Of a stretch of 64,000 bases of DNA, positions 37,282-45,591 are shown one piece after another. Under the pieces are notes generated by a model that did no database searches, was not told the DNA's origin, and was given only the letters and a program-made list of their open reading frames with translations. The stretch's first letter is position 1; each line of letters starts with the position of its first letter. The stretch spans positions 682,001 through 746,000 of the forward strand of contig NZ_QJOW01000001.1 of assembly GCF_009184545.1 (NCBI RefSeq). Direction: 5' to 3'. Both the position numbers and the translations under genes were made by a program. Origin of the DNA: Halosegnis rubeus (GTDB lineage: Archaea > Halobacteriota > Halobacteria > Halobacteriales > Haloarculaceae).

Positions 37282-38094
37282 TTACAGCCCGTCGAGAAAC
37301 TCCCGCAGCGCGGCGTTCGTCGCCTCGGGATTCTCCAGGTTCGAGGAGTGGCCGGCCTCCGGAATCCGAACGAGTTCGGCGTCGAGCGCGTCGGCCGTCG
37401 CCTCGGCCTTCTCCATCGCGATGCTCACGTCCTCTTCGCCGTGGGTGACAAGTGCCGGGACGTCGAGGGTTCGGGCCGTCTCCGTGAAGTCCTCGCGGTC
37501 GAGCCACGACGCCATCTCGTTGTGGACGGCCAGTCCCGGATACGTCTCCCACGTGCGCGCCCACTGGTCGACGAGGGTCGGATGCTGTTCGTGCGTCGTC
37601 TCCCCGAACAGCTGGTGGCGCGCGACCTCGATGCTCGCGTCGGTGGCGTGGCCCACGTCTTTGAGTCGGTCGATGAGCATCCGGTACTGTTGGCGGTCCT
37701 CCTCGGAGTGGGTGCCGGCGTCCGAGTCCACGAGGACGATGCCGTCCACGCGATCGGGATGGCGCTCGGCCGCACGGAGCGCCGTGAACCCGCCCATTGA
37801 CATTCCGACGAGGACCGCGGAGTCGATGTCGAGCCCGTCGAGTACGGCGGCGTAATCGTCAGCCAGGTCGTCGAGGTCGTACTCGTCGGCGTAGCGGTCT
37901 GTTCGGGCCCGGAGGTCGTACGCGACACACCGGTACTCGTCGCTGAGGGCCGCGAGCTGCGGCTCGAACATCGTCCGGTCCATCAGGGTGCCGTGTGCGA
38001 AGACGACCGTCGGTCCGTCGCCCCGGTCGGTCGCGACCGTCGCCGTCCGCTCGCGGTACATCGCTCGTCCCCGCTGAGTGTCACCTTCTGTCAT
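37282..38094 (-). CDS. Alpha/beta hydrolase
   Basis: 270 residues with a complete catalytic triad: nucleophile Ser in VGMSMGGFTA, acid Asp in THGEEDVS, and His in PEAGHSSNLENPE. Oxyanion region HGTLMDRTMFEP near the N-terminus. The sequence is of the 3-oxoadipate-enol-lactonase/peroxidase-like branch, but the substrate is unknown. Start could be 38094 (MTEGDTQ) or the internal Met twelve codons in (MYRERT). It is divergent from dacZ, 114 bases apart. Confidence 0.87.
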   Translation of the reverse strand: MTEGDTQRGRAMYRERTATVATDRGDGPTVVFAHGTLMDRTMFEPQLAALSDEYRCVAYDLRARTDRYADEYDLDDLADDYAAVLDGLDIDSAVLVGMSMGGFTALRAAERHPDRVDGIVLVDSDAGTHSEEDRQQYRMLIDRLKDVGHATDASIEVARHQLFGETTHEQHPTLVDQWARTWETYPGLAVHNEMASWLDREDFTETARTLDVPALVTHGEEDVSIAMEKAEATADALDAELVRIPEAGHSSNLENPEATNAALREFLDGL

Positions 38095-38208
38095 GTGGTG
38101 TGGTACCGCGACCGGTGCAAAAACCTACGCATCGGCGTCAGACGATTGACAGCCGGACGGCAGACGCCCGCCGCAATTCTTTTTTCGGCAGACCGAGACG
38201 TTCGGTCA

Positions 38209-39015
38209 ATGAGCGACCTCCGTGACCTGCTAGACGAGATTGTCGACGACGTGGACGCGGTGTGTCTGTTCTCGCCGACCGGGAGCTACTACGAGGTGGC
38301 GGACGAAAGCGACTTCCCGGTCATCGTCGTCGCCCCCGAAAACGACGTGGGCGCGGAGACGTACGTGGAGCTACCGATCGAGTTCGCCGACGTGAAAGAG
38401 CGCATCCGGTTTGGACTGGAGGGTGCCCTCAACAACGGCCACATCGAGGAAGAACACGTTGTCTGCTGTGTCACCTCGGTCTTCGACGGCGTCGACACCG
38501 TGACGCGTACCAAGGCCGACGCCTTCGAGCACTCCGGCGCGTACACGCTCTTTACTAGTTCGCGTGCCGACCCGAGCGTCATCCGCGACGTGTTCGAGGT
38601 CGCAATCGAGCTGGGAAAGAAGGGGCAGAAGGGCAAGCAGGTGGGGGCGCTGTTCGTCGTCGGCGACGCGGGCAAGGTGATGAACAAGTCTCGCCCGCTC
38701 TCGTACAACCCCTTCGAGAAGTCACACGTCCATGTGGGCGACCCGATCGTGAACGTCATGCTGAAGGAGTTCACCCGGCTCGACGGTGCGTTCGTCATCT
38801 CGGACTCGGGCAAACTGGTGAGCGCTTACCGCTATCTCGAACCCTCTGCCGAGGGGACGGATATCCCGAAGGGGCTGGGCGCGCGCCACATGGCCGCGGC
38901 CGGTATCACCCGGGAGACGAACGCGGTCAGCATCGCGCTCTCGGAGTCCGATGGGCTGATTCGCGCCTTCCAGGGCGGCGAACTCATCCTCGAACTCGAC
39001 CCGGAGGCCTACTGA
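38209..39015 (+). CDS. dacZ: Diadenylate cyclase DacZ (c-di-AMP synthase)
   Basis: 268 residues. The C-terminal DAC domain has both active-site motifs: DGA (residues 192-194, in LDGAFVISDSG) and RHMAA (226-230, in LGARHMAAAGIT). The N-terminal part (1-120) is the archaeal-type PK-like lobe. It makes c-di-AMP from 2 ATP; in Haloferax the enzyme is essential and its level affects osmotic behaviour (established). Start ATG at 38209 is supported by a T-rich box about 30 nt upstream. One base separates its stop from the MscS-like gene. Confidence 0.94.
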   Translation: MSDLRDLLDEIVDDVDAVCLFSPTGSYYEVADESDFPVIVVAPENDVGAETYVELPIEFADVKERIRFGLEGALNNGHIEEEHVVCCVTSVFDGVDTVTRTKADAFEHSGAYTLFTSSRADPSVIRDVFEVAIELGKKGQKGKQVGALFVVGDAGKVMNKSRPLSYNPFEKSHVHVGDPIVNVMLKEFTRLDGAFVISDSGKLVSAYRYLEPSAEGTDIPKGLGARHMAAAGITRETNAVSIALSESDGLIRAFQGGELILELDPEAY

Positions 39016-40815: not shown

Positions 40816-43800
40816 CTACTCGCTTTCGTCTGCCGTCTCTGCGCCTCGCTCCTGCACGCGGATTCCCTTCCCCTGCAGGTGGCGCGTCCGCGACCGTGCG
40901 AACTCCTCTTCCTTGCTCGCGCGAGTCGCGAGGACGTACATCCGGGCCTTCCCGACGGGGCGCATCGTTCGCCCCGCCCGCTGTGCGCCCTGCCGTCTGC
41001 TCCCGCCCAGACCGGAGGCTGCAATCGCAATCTCCGCGCCCGGCAGGTCGATACCCTCGTCTGCGACCCGAGAGACGACGAGCACGTCGCGCGCGCCGTG
41101 GCGGAACTCGTCGAACAGCTTCCGGCGGCGGGCGTGGCGCATCTCGCCGGAGACGAACGGTACCGACAGCGCCTCCGCGATCTGTTCGCCCTGCTCGATG
41201 TACTCTACGAAGACGAGCGCCTTCTCGCCGCGGTGCTCGCGCAGAATCGCCTCGATTTCGGGGAGCTTCGCCGGATTCTCGGCGGCGGCCTTCCGCTTGT
41301 CGTGGCCCACGGCCGCGTCGTACTCTCGGCGCGCGTCGTCGTCGGCCCACGGAACGAGCCGAATCTCGACCTCCGGCTCGGCGACGTAGCCGGCATCGAA
41401 CAGCGCCGCCCAGTTCGTCCCAATCGGTGGGCCGATGAGCGTGTAGATCTCTTGTTGTTTGTCATCTTCTCGAATTGGCGTCGCGGAGTTGTGACAGAAC
41501 AAGTGGTCGCCGAGGAAATTCTCGGTACCGGTCGAGAGGTCGTACACGTACTCGTCCTCAGAATCAACTTCGACGACACTCTCAACGTCGAGCATCGCCA
41601 CGTCTGTCTCAGTGAGCCACTCGGCATCTACGTCGCCTCGCTGTGTGACGGCCGATAGTTCGTCGTCGTTGAGTCGCATCCTCTCTGCTAGTCCGCTCTC
41701 GAACGTCCCACCGTCCGCGCGTCGAGGCCCGTATCGCTCGGCCTCGTCGTATGCACGCTGTAGCGGCTCCGTGAACGGAGTGAGCGAGAGCCGCCCGGTT
41801 TGGCCGTCGTTGTTCGGATTGAATCGGACCAGATAGTTCTCGACGGTGTCGTGGTCTCCTTCTCGAACACCGACCTCCGGATTGCGGTGGTACTCTCCAC
41901 CCACGTAGCCGCGGGCGGCCAACAAGAGATTTAGCCCGGCGGCCAACTGCTTGCTCGATGTCGAGATGGTGACCATCTCCTTTCCTCGCTCGCGCTTCGC
42001 TCTGTGTCCGTCTCCGAGAACGATTCCCTCGATGAACGGCTCGTAGGCTGTTGGATTCGAGAGAACGACCGAAGGGACCGACTTGTCTCTGGCTCCATTC
42101 GATAGCCCCAGTGAACGGAGCACACGGACGAGTGGTCCAGTGACACGGAGTGTTGTGCAGTTCTCGCCGTTTGCGACGTAGCTGATGTCTACCTCGGGAC
42201 ACACGCCACGAATCACCTGCTCGAACGCCACAACCTCGGATTTTTCCTCGGAATCTGTCGCGTAGAACTCCACACGCCCGTCGTCGAGGGCTCCGTCTGC
42301 GACGAACAAGCCGAGGAGCCGCGCGAACGCTTCGGTTGAAACCTCGGGTGGAATGTAACTGTGTCGACCGTGCACGTAGACACCCTTGATACACTCGCGA
42401 TTGAGGTCGATTTCGCGGGCGATAGATAGTGGAATGCTTCGGCGCGATTTCCAGTTGTATCTGCTCTTGTTATCACCGATACCACGCTCGTACAGTGGGT
42501 CGAATACGGACTCTGGTGCATCGTCGTCGATGAGTACGTATCCCTCCTCAAGCAGTTCCATCACATCGACCGTCTGGTCCGTCGCTCCCGGCGCTGGAAC
42601 TGCCTCCGGCTGCAGGAGATAATCTGTCTCGGACAAGTCCTCGGCGACCTTGCTCGTTACCTCCATCGTCTCCCCGTCGAAGACGATGAGTGAGTGGTCG
42701 CCGGTGACGGTGACCTCCCGACCGTTGCGCCCTCTGACGCGGTACATCTGCCCGTCGTGGCGATGTCTCATCACTGCCTGTATTGGGGTCCACTCAACGG
42801 CTCCGTCCTCGGTCACGCCGAGTGTTTCCATTCCCGAGAGACGCTCCATACCGGGGCCTACAGCGAGGTGTTCTTCAGCAAACTCCGCAATCGGTCGCAT
42901 CGAAAGCTCCCCGCCGTTCCGAATCGGAACCATCGTCTCTCCATCGACCGACAAGCCGAGGCGGTGCTTCGCCTGTAGCGTGGCCGAGCGTCGATGGATG
43001 GGCGACGGAATGTGGTGACAATTGTGCGTCAGGATTCCATTCGCGATGAAAGTATGACTCGCCGTTTCGAAGTCATACACCGTCTCAACTCCATCGTCCT
43101 GTACGTCGGCCACTTCCAAGAGACACAGCTCTGAAAGCGACGAGAGCCGTTTGGAGTGTCTCAACATGGCTGACTGGCGGCGGTCGAGCAGTTCTTCGAC
43201 GGCCTGAACTGCATCTCGCTCACCTCGCTTGAGACGCTGCTCTGCGGTGCTGGTCGCGACTCCGAGCGCTTCTCCAAGGACTCGATACGATATGCCGGCG
43301 AATTCCTTGGCAGCTATCGCGTCTTCAAACGACTTCGTGCCAGCAGCGTTGAGTCCCTCAGCGAGTGTATCGAGCCGTGGCTGTCCGAGTTGATACGCTC
43401 CACGAATCGTATCTCCGACTGTTCCCTTCGCGATACCTGCCATCTCACCGAGCTGTTCGTTCGTTAGCCCCGTGTCTATTTTGACCGTCTCAAGATACTG
43501 ACCCGCAGGGATGCCCGTTGCGGGTGAGTGACCAGCCTCGACGCGCGAGGATTTGTGCTCAAGTCGGAAGCCAACGTATGTCGTAAATTGGTCGTTGTAG
43601 TGGGTTGGTATGGTGATGCGGTGGACGGTGTTGTGTTGGTCTGCCTCCCGCTCGATACTAAACGAGCGAGAGAGGATTCCGAGCCGTCGGAGCAGTAGAC
43701 CCACGTCGTTCGCTAGCGCTTCGGAGGTGGTGTTGAACTGTATCCTCCCCTTAGAATCGACCGAACCCTCAGCGTCGAACAACCCCCGCAGTAGTGCCCC

Positions 43801-45591
43801 AATGTCTGAATCTGACCAGCCGAATCCTTCGTCGGGGACCGAGACGGTCGTCGTCTTATTTCCGTGTTGGCCACTCCAGCCAAGCGGCTCACGCAACTTT
43901 GGAGCCCACAGCGTTCGGTCCCCCCGCTCGTTCTCGAAGGTTGAGTAATCCGTTTCGAGTCGCTCACAGAGTATTTCCAAAATCCGAATCTGTTCATCTG
44001 CACGCCGAGCGAACGAGAATTTCACGTCGTCGTACTCGTTCATATGACCGTCGCCGATGAACCACCCCAGTAGCTCTGCACTCGCAGCCCCATCGCTCTC
44101 CCGTGCTGTCTCGTCTGGCTCTGGGAGAGGCATCACAAGAAACTCTCCCTCCGAGACACCCCGCTGTTCTTGTATCTCACAGCTCTCAGGGTCGAAGACG
44201 AGGTGTGTATGGGACGGCGTTGCCCGAAGTACGTGTCCGGTGTTCGTCTCGATTCGCTGAACCGGAGCCTCGTTCTTGTACACTCCCGTTACCTCGGTCC
44301 ACTCGGAACCTCCACCCGGATCGTGCGTTCGCACCTGTTCGTCAATGCCATCATTCCAGCCCTGTTCAAACTCATACCGCTCATCTAGTTGGGAGAATGT
44401 CGTCTTCCGAGCTGGCGTCTCCACAGTCGTTTCACCAGTCAAACACTCGTCGTAGACGATGAGGCCCCACTTTCTATCGTCGAACAGGTGGCGGTGGCGG
44501 TCCATGCCGGCGGTCTGGTAGGTGGCGATGGTGACGGGGCGAATCTCTTTTTTCCCGCCGTGGTACTCGCCTATAACGTCGGGCGAGAGCGAGGTGTGTT
44601 CGACGATGGTCTCCTTCCACTGGGCGGCGAGTTCACGACCCGGAACGAGCACGAGCGTCTCGCCTTCGATTGCGGACATGACCCCCATCGCGGCGACGGT
44701 CTTACCGGAGCCGGGCGGGCCGACGAGGATGCCCGACCGCTTTTTCGTGAATCGGTTCACCCACTCGTTCTGGTAGTCGCGTAAATCCACCTCAAGCTCG
44801 ATTGGCAGGTCATCACCCGTGTCGAGATGACGGGTGTCGAGGACGGGGTAGCCCGCCTCGTAGAGGGTGCGTTTCACGCCGGCGACGGCGTCGTCTGCAA
44901 TCCACGCCTCGGTGTCAGAAATGAGCGCGCGCAGGTCGCCCTCTTCCAGTTCCTGTTCGGCGATATTACCCATCAGGTCTGCACTCTTCGCTTCGAGGAC
45001 GGTGTAGCCGTCTTCGTGGCTGTAGAGCCGGAACTTCCGGGCGCGCTCCCACTGTGAGCGGACCCACTCCTCGAGTGCGTCGGAACGCTCACCGAGCGCC
45101 TGTCGCATCGTGCGCTGGAGTCCGGAAAACTCGTCGTACGGGGCGCTCCACACGTCCTCCTCGCGGACCTCGTAGATGTAGCCGGATTCGCGGTTGGCGT
45201 CTTCGAGGTGGGCGAACTGCGAGAGCTGTGCGCGGGTGAACTGCGACGGACCGTCCACGACGACCTGCCGACGACCGGGGAAGACGACGACGCGCTCGCG
45301 GTCTGTCGTCTCTTTGTAGTCGCTCGGGAACCAGACACGGGGGTCCGTCTCCACGTCGGCGGAGTCGATACGCCCCGTCCGGGCGAGCGATTCGAGCGCG
45401 TCGAGCGCGACCGACTGGCTCACGTCGAGTTCGCGGGCGAGTTCGCTCGCGGTGGCGAGCGGGCGGCCGACTGACTGGAGAGCGTCGTAGAACGTATCGA
45501 GCGTCAGGTCAGCGTCGACCCGGCGGATTGCCGGCTCGACTGACTCGTCGGCGTCGTCTGTCACTGCTCCGAGTAGGGGAAGCGTGGACAA
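40816..45591 (-). CDS. XPB/Rad25-like DEAD/DEAH helicase with two inteins
   Basis: 1591-residue precursor; without its two inteins the mature enzyme is 628 residues. N-terminal 260 residues are a damage-recognition/HTH-type region. Superfamily 2 motifs: RDYQNEWV (Q-like), motif I GPPGSGKT (291-298), motif II VYDE|CHH, motif III GL|SATP (880, then 1369-1372), motif VI QRAGRTMRPVGK. The sequence belongs to the archaeal XPB (COG1061) group, 3'-5' helicases linked to DNA repair and transcription. Intein 1 sits between Glu382 and Cys858; intein 2 between Leu880 and Ser1369. Splicing of both is needed to rebuild motifs II and III. All reading frames are intact. Confidence 0.93.
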   Translation of the reverse strand: MSTLPLLGAVTDDADESVEPAIRRVDADLTLDTFYDALQSVGRPLATASELARELDVSQSVALDALESLARTGRIDSADVETDPRVWFPSDYKETTDRERVVVFPGRRQVVVDGPSQFTRAQLSQFAHLEDANRESGYIYEVREEDVWSAPYDEFSGLQRTMRQALGERSDALEEWVRSQWERARKFRLYSHEDGYTVLEAKSADLMGNIAEQELEEGDLRALISDTEAWIADDAVAGVKRTLYEAGYPVLDTRHLDTGDDLPIELEVDLRDYQNEWVNRFTKKRSGILVGPPGSGKTVAAMGVMSAIEGETLVLVPGRELAAQWKETIVEHTSLSPDVIGEYHGGKKEIRPVTIATYQTAGMDRHRHLFDDRKWGLIVYDECLTGETTVETPARKTTFSQLDERYEFEQGWNDGIDEQVRTHDPGGGSEWTEVTGVYKNEAPVQRIETNTGHVLRATPSHTHLVFDPESCEIQEQRGVSEGEFLVMPLPEPDETARESDGAASAELLGWFIGDGHMNEYDDVKFSFARRADEQIRILEILCERLETDYSTFENERGDRTLWAPKLREPLGWSGQHGNKTTTVSVPDEGFGWSDSDIGALLRGLFDAEGSVDSKGRIQFNTTSEALANDVGLLLRRLGILSRSFSIEREADQHNTVHRITIPTHYNDQFTTYVGFRLEHKSSRVEAGHSPATGIPAGQYLETVKIDTGLTNEQLGEMAGIAKGTVGDTIRGAYQLGQPRLDTLAEGLNAAGTKSFEDAIAAKEFAGISYRVLGEALGVATSTAEQRLKRGERDAVQAVEELLDRRQSAMLRHSKRLSSLSELCLLEVADVQDDGVETVYDFETASHTFIANGILTHNCHHIPSPIHRRSATLQAKHRLGLSVDGETMVPIRNGGELSMRPIAEFAEEHLAVGPGMERLSGMETLGVTEDGAVEWTPIQAVMRHRHDGQMYRVRGRNGREVTVTGDHSLIVFDGETMEVTSKVAEDLSETDYLLQPEAVPAPGATDQTVDVMELLEEGYVLIDDDAPESVFDPLYERGIGDNKSRYNWKSRRSIPLSIAREIDLNRECIKGVYVHGRHSYIPPEVSTEAFARLLGLFVADGALDDGRVEFYATDSEEKSEVVAFEQVIRGVCPEVDISYVANGENCTTLRVTGPLVRVLRSLGLSNGARDKSVPSVVLSNPTAYEPFIEGIVLGDGHRAKRERGKEMVTISTSSKQLAAGLNLLLAARGYVGGEYHRNPEVGVREGDHDTVENYLVRFNPNNDGQTGRLSLTPFTEPLQRAYDEAERYGPRRADGGTFESGLAERMRLNDDELSAVTQRGDVDAEWLTETDVAMLDVESVVEVDSEDEYVYDLSTGTENFLGDHLFCHNSATPIREDDKQQEIYTLIGPPIGTNWAALFDAGYVAEPEVEIRLVPWADDDARREYDAAVGHDKRKAAAENPAKLPEIEAILREHRGEKALVFVEYIEQGEQIAEALSVPFVSGEMRHARRRKLFDEFRHGARDVLVVSRVADEGIDLPGAEIAIAASGLGGSRRQGAQRAGRTMRPVGKARMYVLATRASKEEEFARSRTRHLQGKGIRVQERGAETADESE
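41488..42951 (-). other. Intein 2 of the XPB-like helicase (488 aa, DOD endonuclease)
   Basis: Precursor residues 881-1368. It starts with Ser881 (SVDGETMV), ends FLGDHLFCHN, and is followed by +1 Ser1369 of the extein SATP. Block B VTVTGDHSLI; endonuclease blocks LLGLFVADGAL (1092-1102) and FIEGIVLGDGH (1186-1196). It interrupts helicase motif III (GL|SATP). The nearest extein stretch between the two inteins is only 23 residues (858-880). Codon checks: TCG at 42949-42951, AAC at 41488-41490, TCC at 41485-41487. Confidence 0.92.
43021..44445 (-). other. Intein 1 of the XPB-like helicase (475 aa, DOD endonuclease)
   Basis: Precursor residues 383-857. It starts with Cys383 (CLTGETTV) and ends HTFIANGILTHN with +1 Cys858, the canonical splice residues. 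Block B is RATPSHTHLV; LAGLIDADG-type blocks are LLGWFIGDGHM (507-517) and LLRGLFDAEGSV (600-611). Between the endonuclease and the C-terminal splice block an extra region (about 700-800) carries two helix-turn-helix-like segments (TNEQLGEMAGIAKGTVGD; VLGEALGVATSTAEQRL). It interrupts motif II of the helicase, between DE and CHH. Boundaries checked at the codon level: TGT at 44443-44445, AAT at 43021-43023, extein TGT at 43018-43020 (plus-strand coordinates). Confidence 0.92.

Follow-up and report, generated by a model that had tools for sequence, protein, structure and literature searches.

Two unrelated inteins in an XPB/Rad25-family helicase of Halosegnis rubeus and the probable order of their arrival

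We analyzed a helicase gene of Halosegnis rubeus that is interrupted by two inteins, here called intein a and intein b. The comparisons described below suggest, with a probability of roughly 85%, that this gene has been parasitised by two unrelated mobile class 1 inteins, of which b would have arrived first and a later, bringing a co-converted flank with it. All coordinates are those of the window, that is, the whole 64,000-nt stretch of DNA that was analyzed, and all features lie on its minus strand unless otherwise noted.

Two inteins at helicase motifs II and III

The gene is an uninterrupted open frame of 1591 codons (40816-45591) that comprises an XPB/Rad25-family helicase and the two inteins. 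The frame, Pfam matches and relatives place the N-extein, which ends with VYDE in motif II, at 44446-45591. Intein a follows at DE/C (site XPB-a; 43021-44445); its 475 aa (aa 383-857), delimited by splice residues, Pfam and a structure model, run from Cys1 to a terminal HisAsn and are followed by Cys+1. Next comes a 23-residue stretch of extein (CHHIPSPIHRRSATLQAKHRLGL; 42952-43020), read from the frame and from alignment to free sites, so that only 69 bp separate the inteins. Intein b is inserted at GL/SATP (site XPB-b; 41488-42951), and splice residues and Pfam assign it 488 aa (aa 881-1368), from Ser1 to HisAsn and followed by Ser+1. According to the frame and Pfam, the C-extein (40816-41487) contains SATP of motif III, helicase domain 2 (ERCC3_RAD25_C) and the stop codon. 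At 57% (intein a) and 59% (intein b), the GC content of the inteins is below the 66% of the extein. An empty site a reads GACGAG, then TGTCACCAC.

When the protein was aligned with intein-free homologues, gaps appeared exactly at aa 383-857 and 881-1368, and a 638-aa intein-free relative matched the spliced product at 90% over 629 columns. In more than 100 further genomes, the helicase is continuous across both sites. An earlier sequence-only reading had placed two inteins at motifs II and III with 23 extein residues between them; the relatives lack exactly these two segments and the frame coordinates give the same spacing, and the double-intein helicase is confirmed. The 628-residue spliced product given in that reading holds when counted from the listed TTG start (45591). 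However, the GTG at 45564 is the likelier start, because the TTG, nine codons upstream, lies just past the purD stop and because VTDDAD is kept in relatives. With the GTG start, the precursor would probably have about 1582 aa and the spliced product 619 aa.

Splicing and endonuclease features

Pfam detected two Intein_splicing stretches (3e-27), LAGLIDADG_3 and Hom_end, and the intein N- and C-terminal signatures of NCBIfam were also matched. Intein a has Cys1, invariant in 11 family members, a block B TxxH motif (TPSH, with T76 and H79 invariant), and H464, the penultimate H474, N475 and Cys+1 in blocks F and G. In the family alignment, its LAGLIDADG motifs are ELLGWFIGDGH (44044-44076), with G131, D132 and G133 invariant in 11, and LLRGLFDAEG (43765-43794), with D224 and E226 invariant in 11. 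Pfam HTH matches and AlphaFold2 helices indicate two helix-turn-helix-like segments (43228-43485), which follow the endonuclease and precede the C-terminal splicing block. The AlphaFold2 model of intein a (pLDDT 82) shows a Hint and LAGLIDADG fold, for which the best Foldseek matches were the TliVMA intein (7qss) and PI-PfuI (1dq3), with I-DmoI over the endonuclease.

Intein b has S1, T83 and H86 (TGDH), H487 and N488, all invariant in its family, followed by Ser+1. Its LAGLIDADG motifs, likewise from the family alignment, are ARLLGLFVADG (42292-42324; D219 invariant) and PFIEGIVLGDG (42007-42039; D314 invariant). The block F His is absent, with Glu at residue 477, a position that is not invariant in the family; this His is usual in inteins and not obligatory, and some inteins lack it. 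An invariant Cys (residue 486) immediately precedes the penultimate His throughout the intein b family. The structure model of intein b was poor (pLDDT 57) and was left unused.

The acidic residues are kept in both motif pairs, namely GDG and AEG in a and ADG and GDG in b. On these features, we read a and b as intact class 1 inteins with predicted two-motif LAGLIDADG homing endonucleases. The canonical splice residues noted earlier were borne out for the class 1 nucleophiles and Asn of both inteins, and the endonuclease blocks were borne out by the motifs and Pfam. A comparison of the two inteins gave only 26% identity over 213 aa, and each belongs to a separate single-site family elsewhere. 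Both observations agree with the earlier proposal of independent invasions and indicate that a and b are unrelated.

Identity of the host helicase

Pfam matches to ERCC3_RAD25_C (PF16203, 4.5e-22), ResIII and Helicase_C assign the host to the XPB/Rad25 family of SF2 helicases. Against the NCBIfam equivalog model for the DNA repair helicase XPB (NF045503), the spliced protein scored 383 bits, below the cut-off of 610. Bax1 (DUF790) is encoded in the same genome (G000:C6:619876-621030), not beside the intein-bearing helicase, and the helicase directly before Bax1 is an intein-free paralogue, 30% identical to the intein-bearing one. These comparisons indicate that the host gene belongs to a second Rad25/XPB clade and is not the Bax1-linked XPB. 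The earlier description as XPB-like is right at the level of the family, but the member of the XPB-Bax1 pair is the intein-free paralogue. In the public records examined, these helicases are labelled only DEAD/DEAH box helicase. Elsewhere in the window, a diadenylate cyclase (DACZ) gene on the plus strand (37993-39015) is followed by a mechanosensitive channel-like gene.

Orthologues of the host gene were found in 373 of the 391 haloarchaeal genomes of the class. In H. volcanii, there are four Rad25 paralogues, whose quadruple deletion caused no growth defect, while survival in a gene conversion assay fell to 14% without all four (PMC11276520).

Distribution of the two inteins

Of the 391 surveyed haloarchaeal genomes, 11 contain a close relative of intein a and nine contain one of intein b, counts that include the H. 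rubeus genome, which is the only one with both. Either intein is missing from more than 97% of orthologues. Alleles at the identical two sites were found in helicases of other surveyed genomes, a in 10 and b in eight, with one more (G052) from a search for relatives. Every carrier with readable flanks has its intein in this helicase, exactly at site a or site b. Carriers of intein a include Halorubrum trapanicum, H. salsamenti, H. halophilum, Halolamina salifodinae, Halorussus pelagicus and Halorussus caseinilyticus; one carrier (G159) has a divergent copy of the host gene, with a core identity of 52%. From the carrier frequencies, 11 x 9 / 373 = 0.27 doubly invaded genomes would be expected and one was seen, which is unremarkable, and an excess of double invasion was rejected. 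An apparent natural split intein b in another genome (G337; L099 and L100, 228 kb apart) was also rejected as a scaffolding artefact, since both pieces adjoin runs of 50 N.

We also considered vehicles of spread. In Halorussus, the helicase with intein a or b is located on plasmids of 300-430 kb (NZ_CP099994, NZ_CP119810, NZ_CP035120), and such large plasmids are a possible route. A viral vehicle was rejected: among the viral contigs scanned, intein a had no relative and intein b a single weak match, which was partial, and the phage records scanned gave two weak matches only. Further inteins of the H. rubeus genome were seen at C10:88597, C8:100426, C8:349906, C6:564358 and C8:63077-65017 (contigs of G000); from the flanking sequence, these appear to interrupt Top6B, DNA polymerase II large subunit, MCM, RtcB and replication factor C small subunit.

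Intein a was also found at the identical site in a helicase of Ca. Nanohalarchaeota QJJ-9 (L197, 1649-4774), the only one of 28 Nanohalarchaeota genomes to carry it. This contig comes from a metagenome bin, but its GC content (46%), the divergence of its extein and its neighbours speak against contamination from haloarchaea. In comparison with H. rubeus, QJJ-9 is 46% identical in the intein and 45% in the helicase core, whereas for the haloarchaeal carriers of a, except G159, the intein values are 48-55% and the core values 62-68%. Given that the intein is conserved like the host protein across phyla, yet evolves faster than it within the class, these values suggest a transfer of intein a between Halobacteria and Nanohalarchaeota.

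The distribution also bears on the idea that the inteins are retained because conditional protein splicing controls the helicase; control by splicing had been suggested as an inference in the sequence-only reading. Both inteins break catalytic motifs, inteins of other helicases, such as mycobacterial DnaB, are reported to splice conditionally (PMC7360933), and the Cys beside the penultimate His of intein b might, speculatively, be a redox handle. However, the presence of both is patchy (11 and nine of 373 orthologues), free congeners and the great majority of orthologues manage without inteins, a is missing even in the nearest relative, and the Rad25 genes of H. volcanii are dispensable (PMC11276520). 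In addition, the endonuclease motifs are intact and the endonuclease region of b is under purifying selection (dN/dS 0.07 against the nearest relative), as for a mobile element. A regulatory role is thus unsupported, and we consider it improbable.

Probable order of arrival and proposed co-conversion at site a

The reading of two mobile inteins that arrived one after the other is based on comparison with close relatives. The nearest relative (G004; 98% core identity) carries intein b at 97% and has an empty site a, and the congeners G001, G002, G003 and G005 have neither intein. Between H. rubeus and G004, intein b has a dS of 0.22 and the extein one of 0.29, values close enough that b was most likely inherited from their common ancestor. 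In the tree of intein b, these two genomes join G247 and G399 with support of 100/98, while the extein tree separates the two pairs; b therefore moved between lineages before the ancestor of H. rubeus and G004. These comparisons indicate that b is the older intein in this lineage and that a lies on the H. rubeus branch only.

We also examined the residues at which the inteins must splice; intein a requires a nucleophile at +1. The +1 residue at site a is Cys, followed by HisHis, in all 11 surveyed carriers, in H. caseinilyticus and in the nanohaloarchaeon. Among 119 helicases scored as free at site a, it is Val in 75, Cys in 29 and Ala in 15; among the congeners examined, free sites have Val in the genus of H. 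rubeus and Ala in two other carrier genera. Free sites at b always have Ser or Thr. The +1 codon is TGT in H. rubeus versus GTC in G004, which differ at all three positions. In the 45 nt directly after site a, the two genomes show 14 differences (31%), as against 7% across the rest of the extein, and the divergence peaks exactly at site a (scan-wide permutation P=0.0009). In this tract, H. rubeus differs less from G003 (22% of sites) than from G004, its sister (31%), and outside it the relation is reversed (19% versus 7%); sites separating the sisters are in excess in the tract (Fisher P=7e-5). About 30 nt upstream of site a, three further bases are unique to H. rubeus among ten genomes compared.

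These differences delimit a putative co-conversion tract, with a 3' part (42981-43020) that includes the +1 Cys codon and was placed by divergence from the sister, and a 5' part (44446-44476) placed by the unique bases. With G003 as the reference, seven of the changed sites in the tract point to G004 and five to H. rubeus; its length of about 70 nt is approximate, because some differences did not arise on the H. rubeus branch. The patch looks foreign, and among the surveyed sequences none matches it as a donor, the best being the intein-free G003 (78% over 45 nt). Most likely, a homed recently into an allele that already carried b and co-converted its own flank. The missing donor, the sites that point to G004 and, for intein b, the Glu in block F and the poor model count against this reading.

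Joint arrival of the inteins, by co-homing or by transfer of the whole doubly invaded gene, would fit the 69-bp spacing, which a single conversion tract could cover. We regard it as more doubtful still than regulation, given that G004 has b alone in the same extein (97%), that the foreign patch stops before b in a gene otherwise 7% from the sister, and that the double inteins of Haloferax mcm co-home very poorly (PMC10643990). We can virtually dismiss an inactivated gene, in which one or both inteins are splicing-dead and the helicase is a pseudogene: the lack of the block F His in b would fit it, but this His is also missing from b relatives with intact exteins, the 1591-codon frame is single and intact, and dN/dS against the sister is low, at 0.025 for the extein (tract excluded) and 0.08 for intein b.

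Discussion

Most likely, both inteins are selfish homing elements. We propose that a recent ancestor of H. rubeus was first invaded by intein b, and that intein a came next, from another haloarchaeon, into the b-carrying allele. Along with intein a, break repair would have carried over some of its flanks, about 30 nt on the upstream side and 40 nt on the downstream side, thereby replacing Val (GTC) with the Cys (TGT) that a needs as its first C-extein residue. If the donor had no b, the b-carrying recipient would have offered it a short homology arm of 69 bp, and the patch does end in this gap. The conversion tract would have stopped in this 69-bp gap, and b would have been kept for that reason. 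After translation, each intein would excise itself and restore DECHH and GLSATP. This order agrees with the haloarchaeal mcm gene, in which doubles arise when an intein enters an allele that already holds one, and in which the two home together only poorly (PMC10643990).

A more general form of this model can be considered at about even odds. In this form, XPB-a is a mobile intein for which co-conversion of the codon is the only way into alleles without a +1 Cys. It would have taken this way in several haloarchaeal genera and have passed between Halobacteria and their nanohaloarchaeal partners; in H. rubeus, it invaded an allele with b 69 bp away, the tract ending in the gap.

The closest known system is MCM-a/MCM-d of haloarchaeal mcm (cdc21), where two LAGLIDADG inteins likewise occupy nearby conserved sites in one helicase gene and each family also occurs alone; as at MCM-d, where Pro must be co-converted to Ser, the +1 residue at XPB-a must be changed, from Val or Ala to Cys (PMC10643990). 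The two systems differ in host gene, sites and intein families, and at XPB-a co-conversion is visible as a nucleotide patch, homing being predicted. The TliVMA (7qss), PI-PfuI (1dq3) and PI-PkoII (2cw7) inteins share the Hint splicing domain and LAGLIDADG endonuclease, but they have other host genes and less than 20% identity by structure alignment, and intein a has its HTH-like extras.

We take KOG1123 to be the XPB/SSL2-type helicase. Large DNA viruses of eukaryotes are known to have inteins in KOG1123 helicases (PMC5784728, Table 1); their hosts are SF2 helicases of the XPB/SSL2 type like ours, but viral, and the likeness drawn here is at the level of the host gene. Soucy et al. (2014) listed 24 halobacterial intein alleles, with 13 host genes in Table 1 and no XPB/Rad25 among them; the only other helicase entry, "helicase-b", an ATP-dependent helicase, is set apart from the XPB sites by name only (PMC4071816). 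Those alleles are the same type of element in the same archaeal class, with a similarly patchy distribution and horizontal transfer (PMC4071816). In the literature searched, to which InBase and subscription papers did not belong, we found no report of the two haloarchaeal XPB sites. XPB-a and XPB-b are apparently intein sites missing from the 2014 halobacterial list, the element type itself being well known.

Two defined insertion sites are added, and related genomes show them empty, singly occupied and doubly occupied. The sequence beside intein a may be read as a record of how a splice-incompatible site was made invadable, in that a short patch supplied the splicing residue. That a nanohaloarchaeon carries the same a allele suggests that genes have passed between the phylum of the symbiont and that of its host. 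Because Rad25 of H. volcanii is needed for efficient gene conversion (PMC11276520), which is the route of intein homing, the function of the host gene and the mobility of its inteins would be jointly testable.
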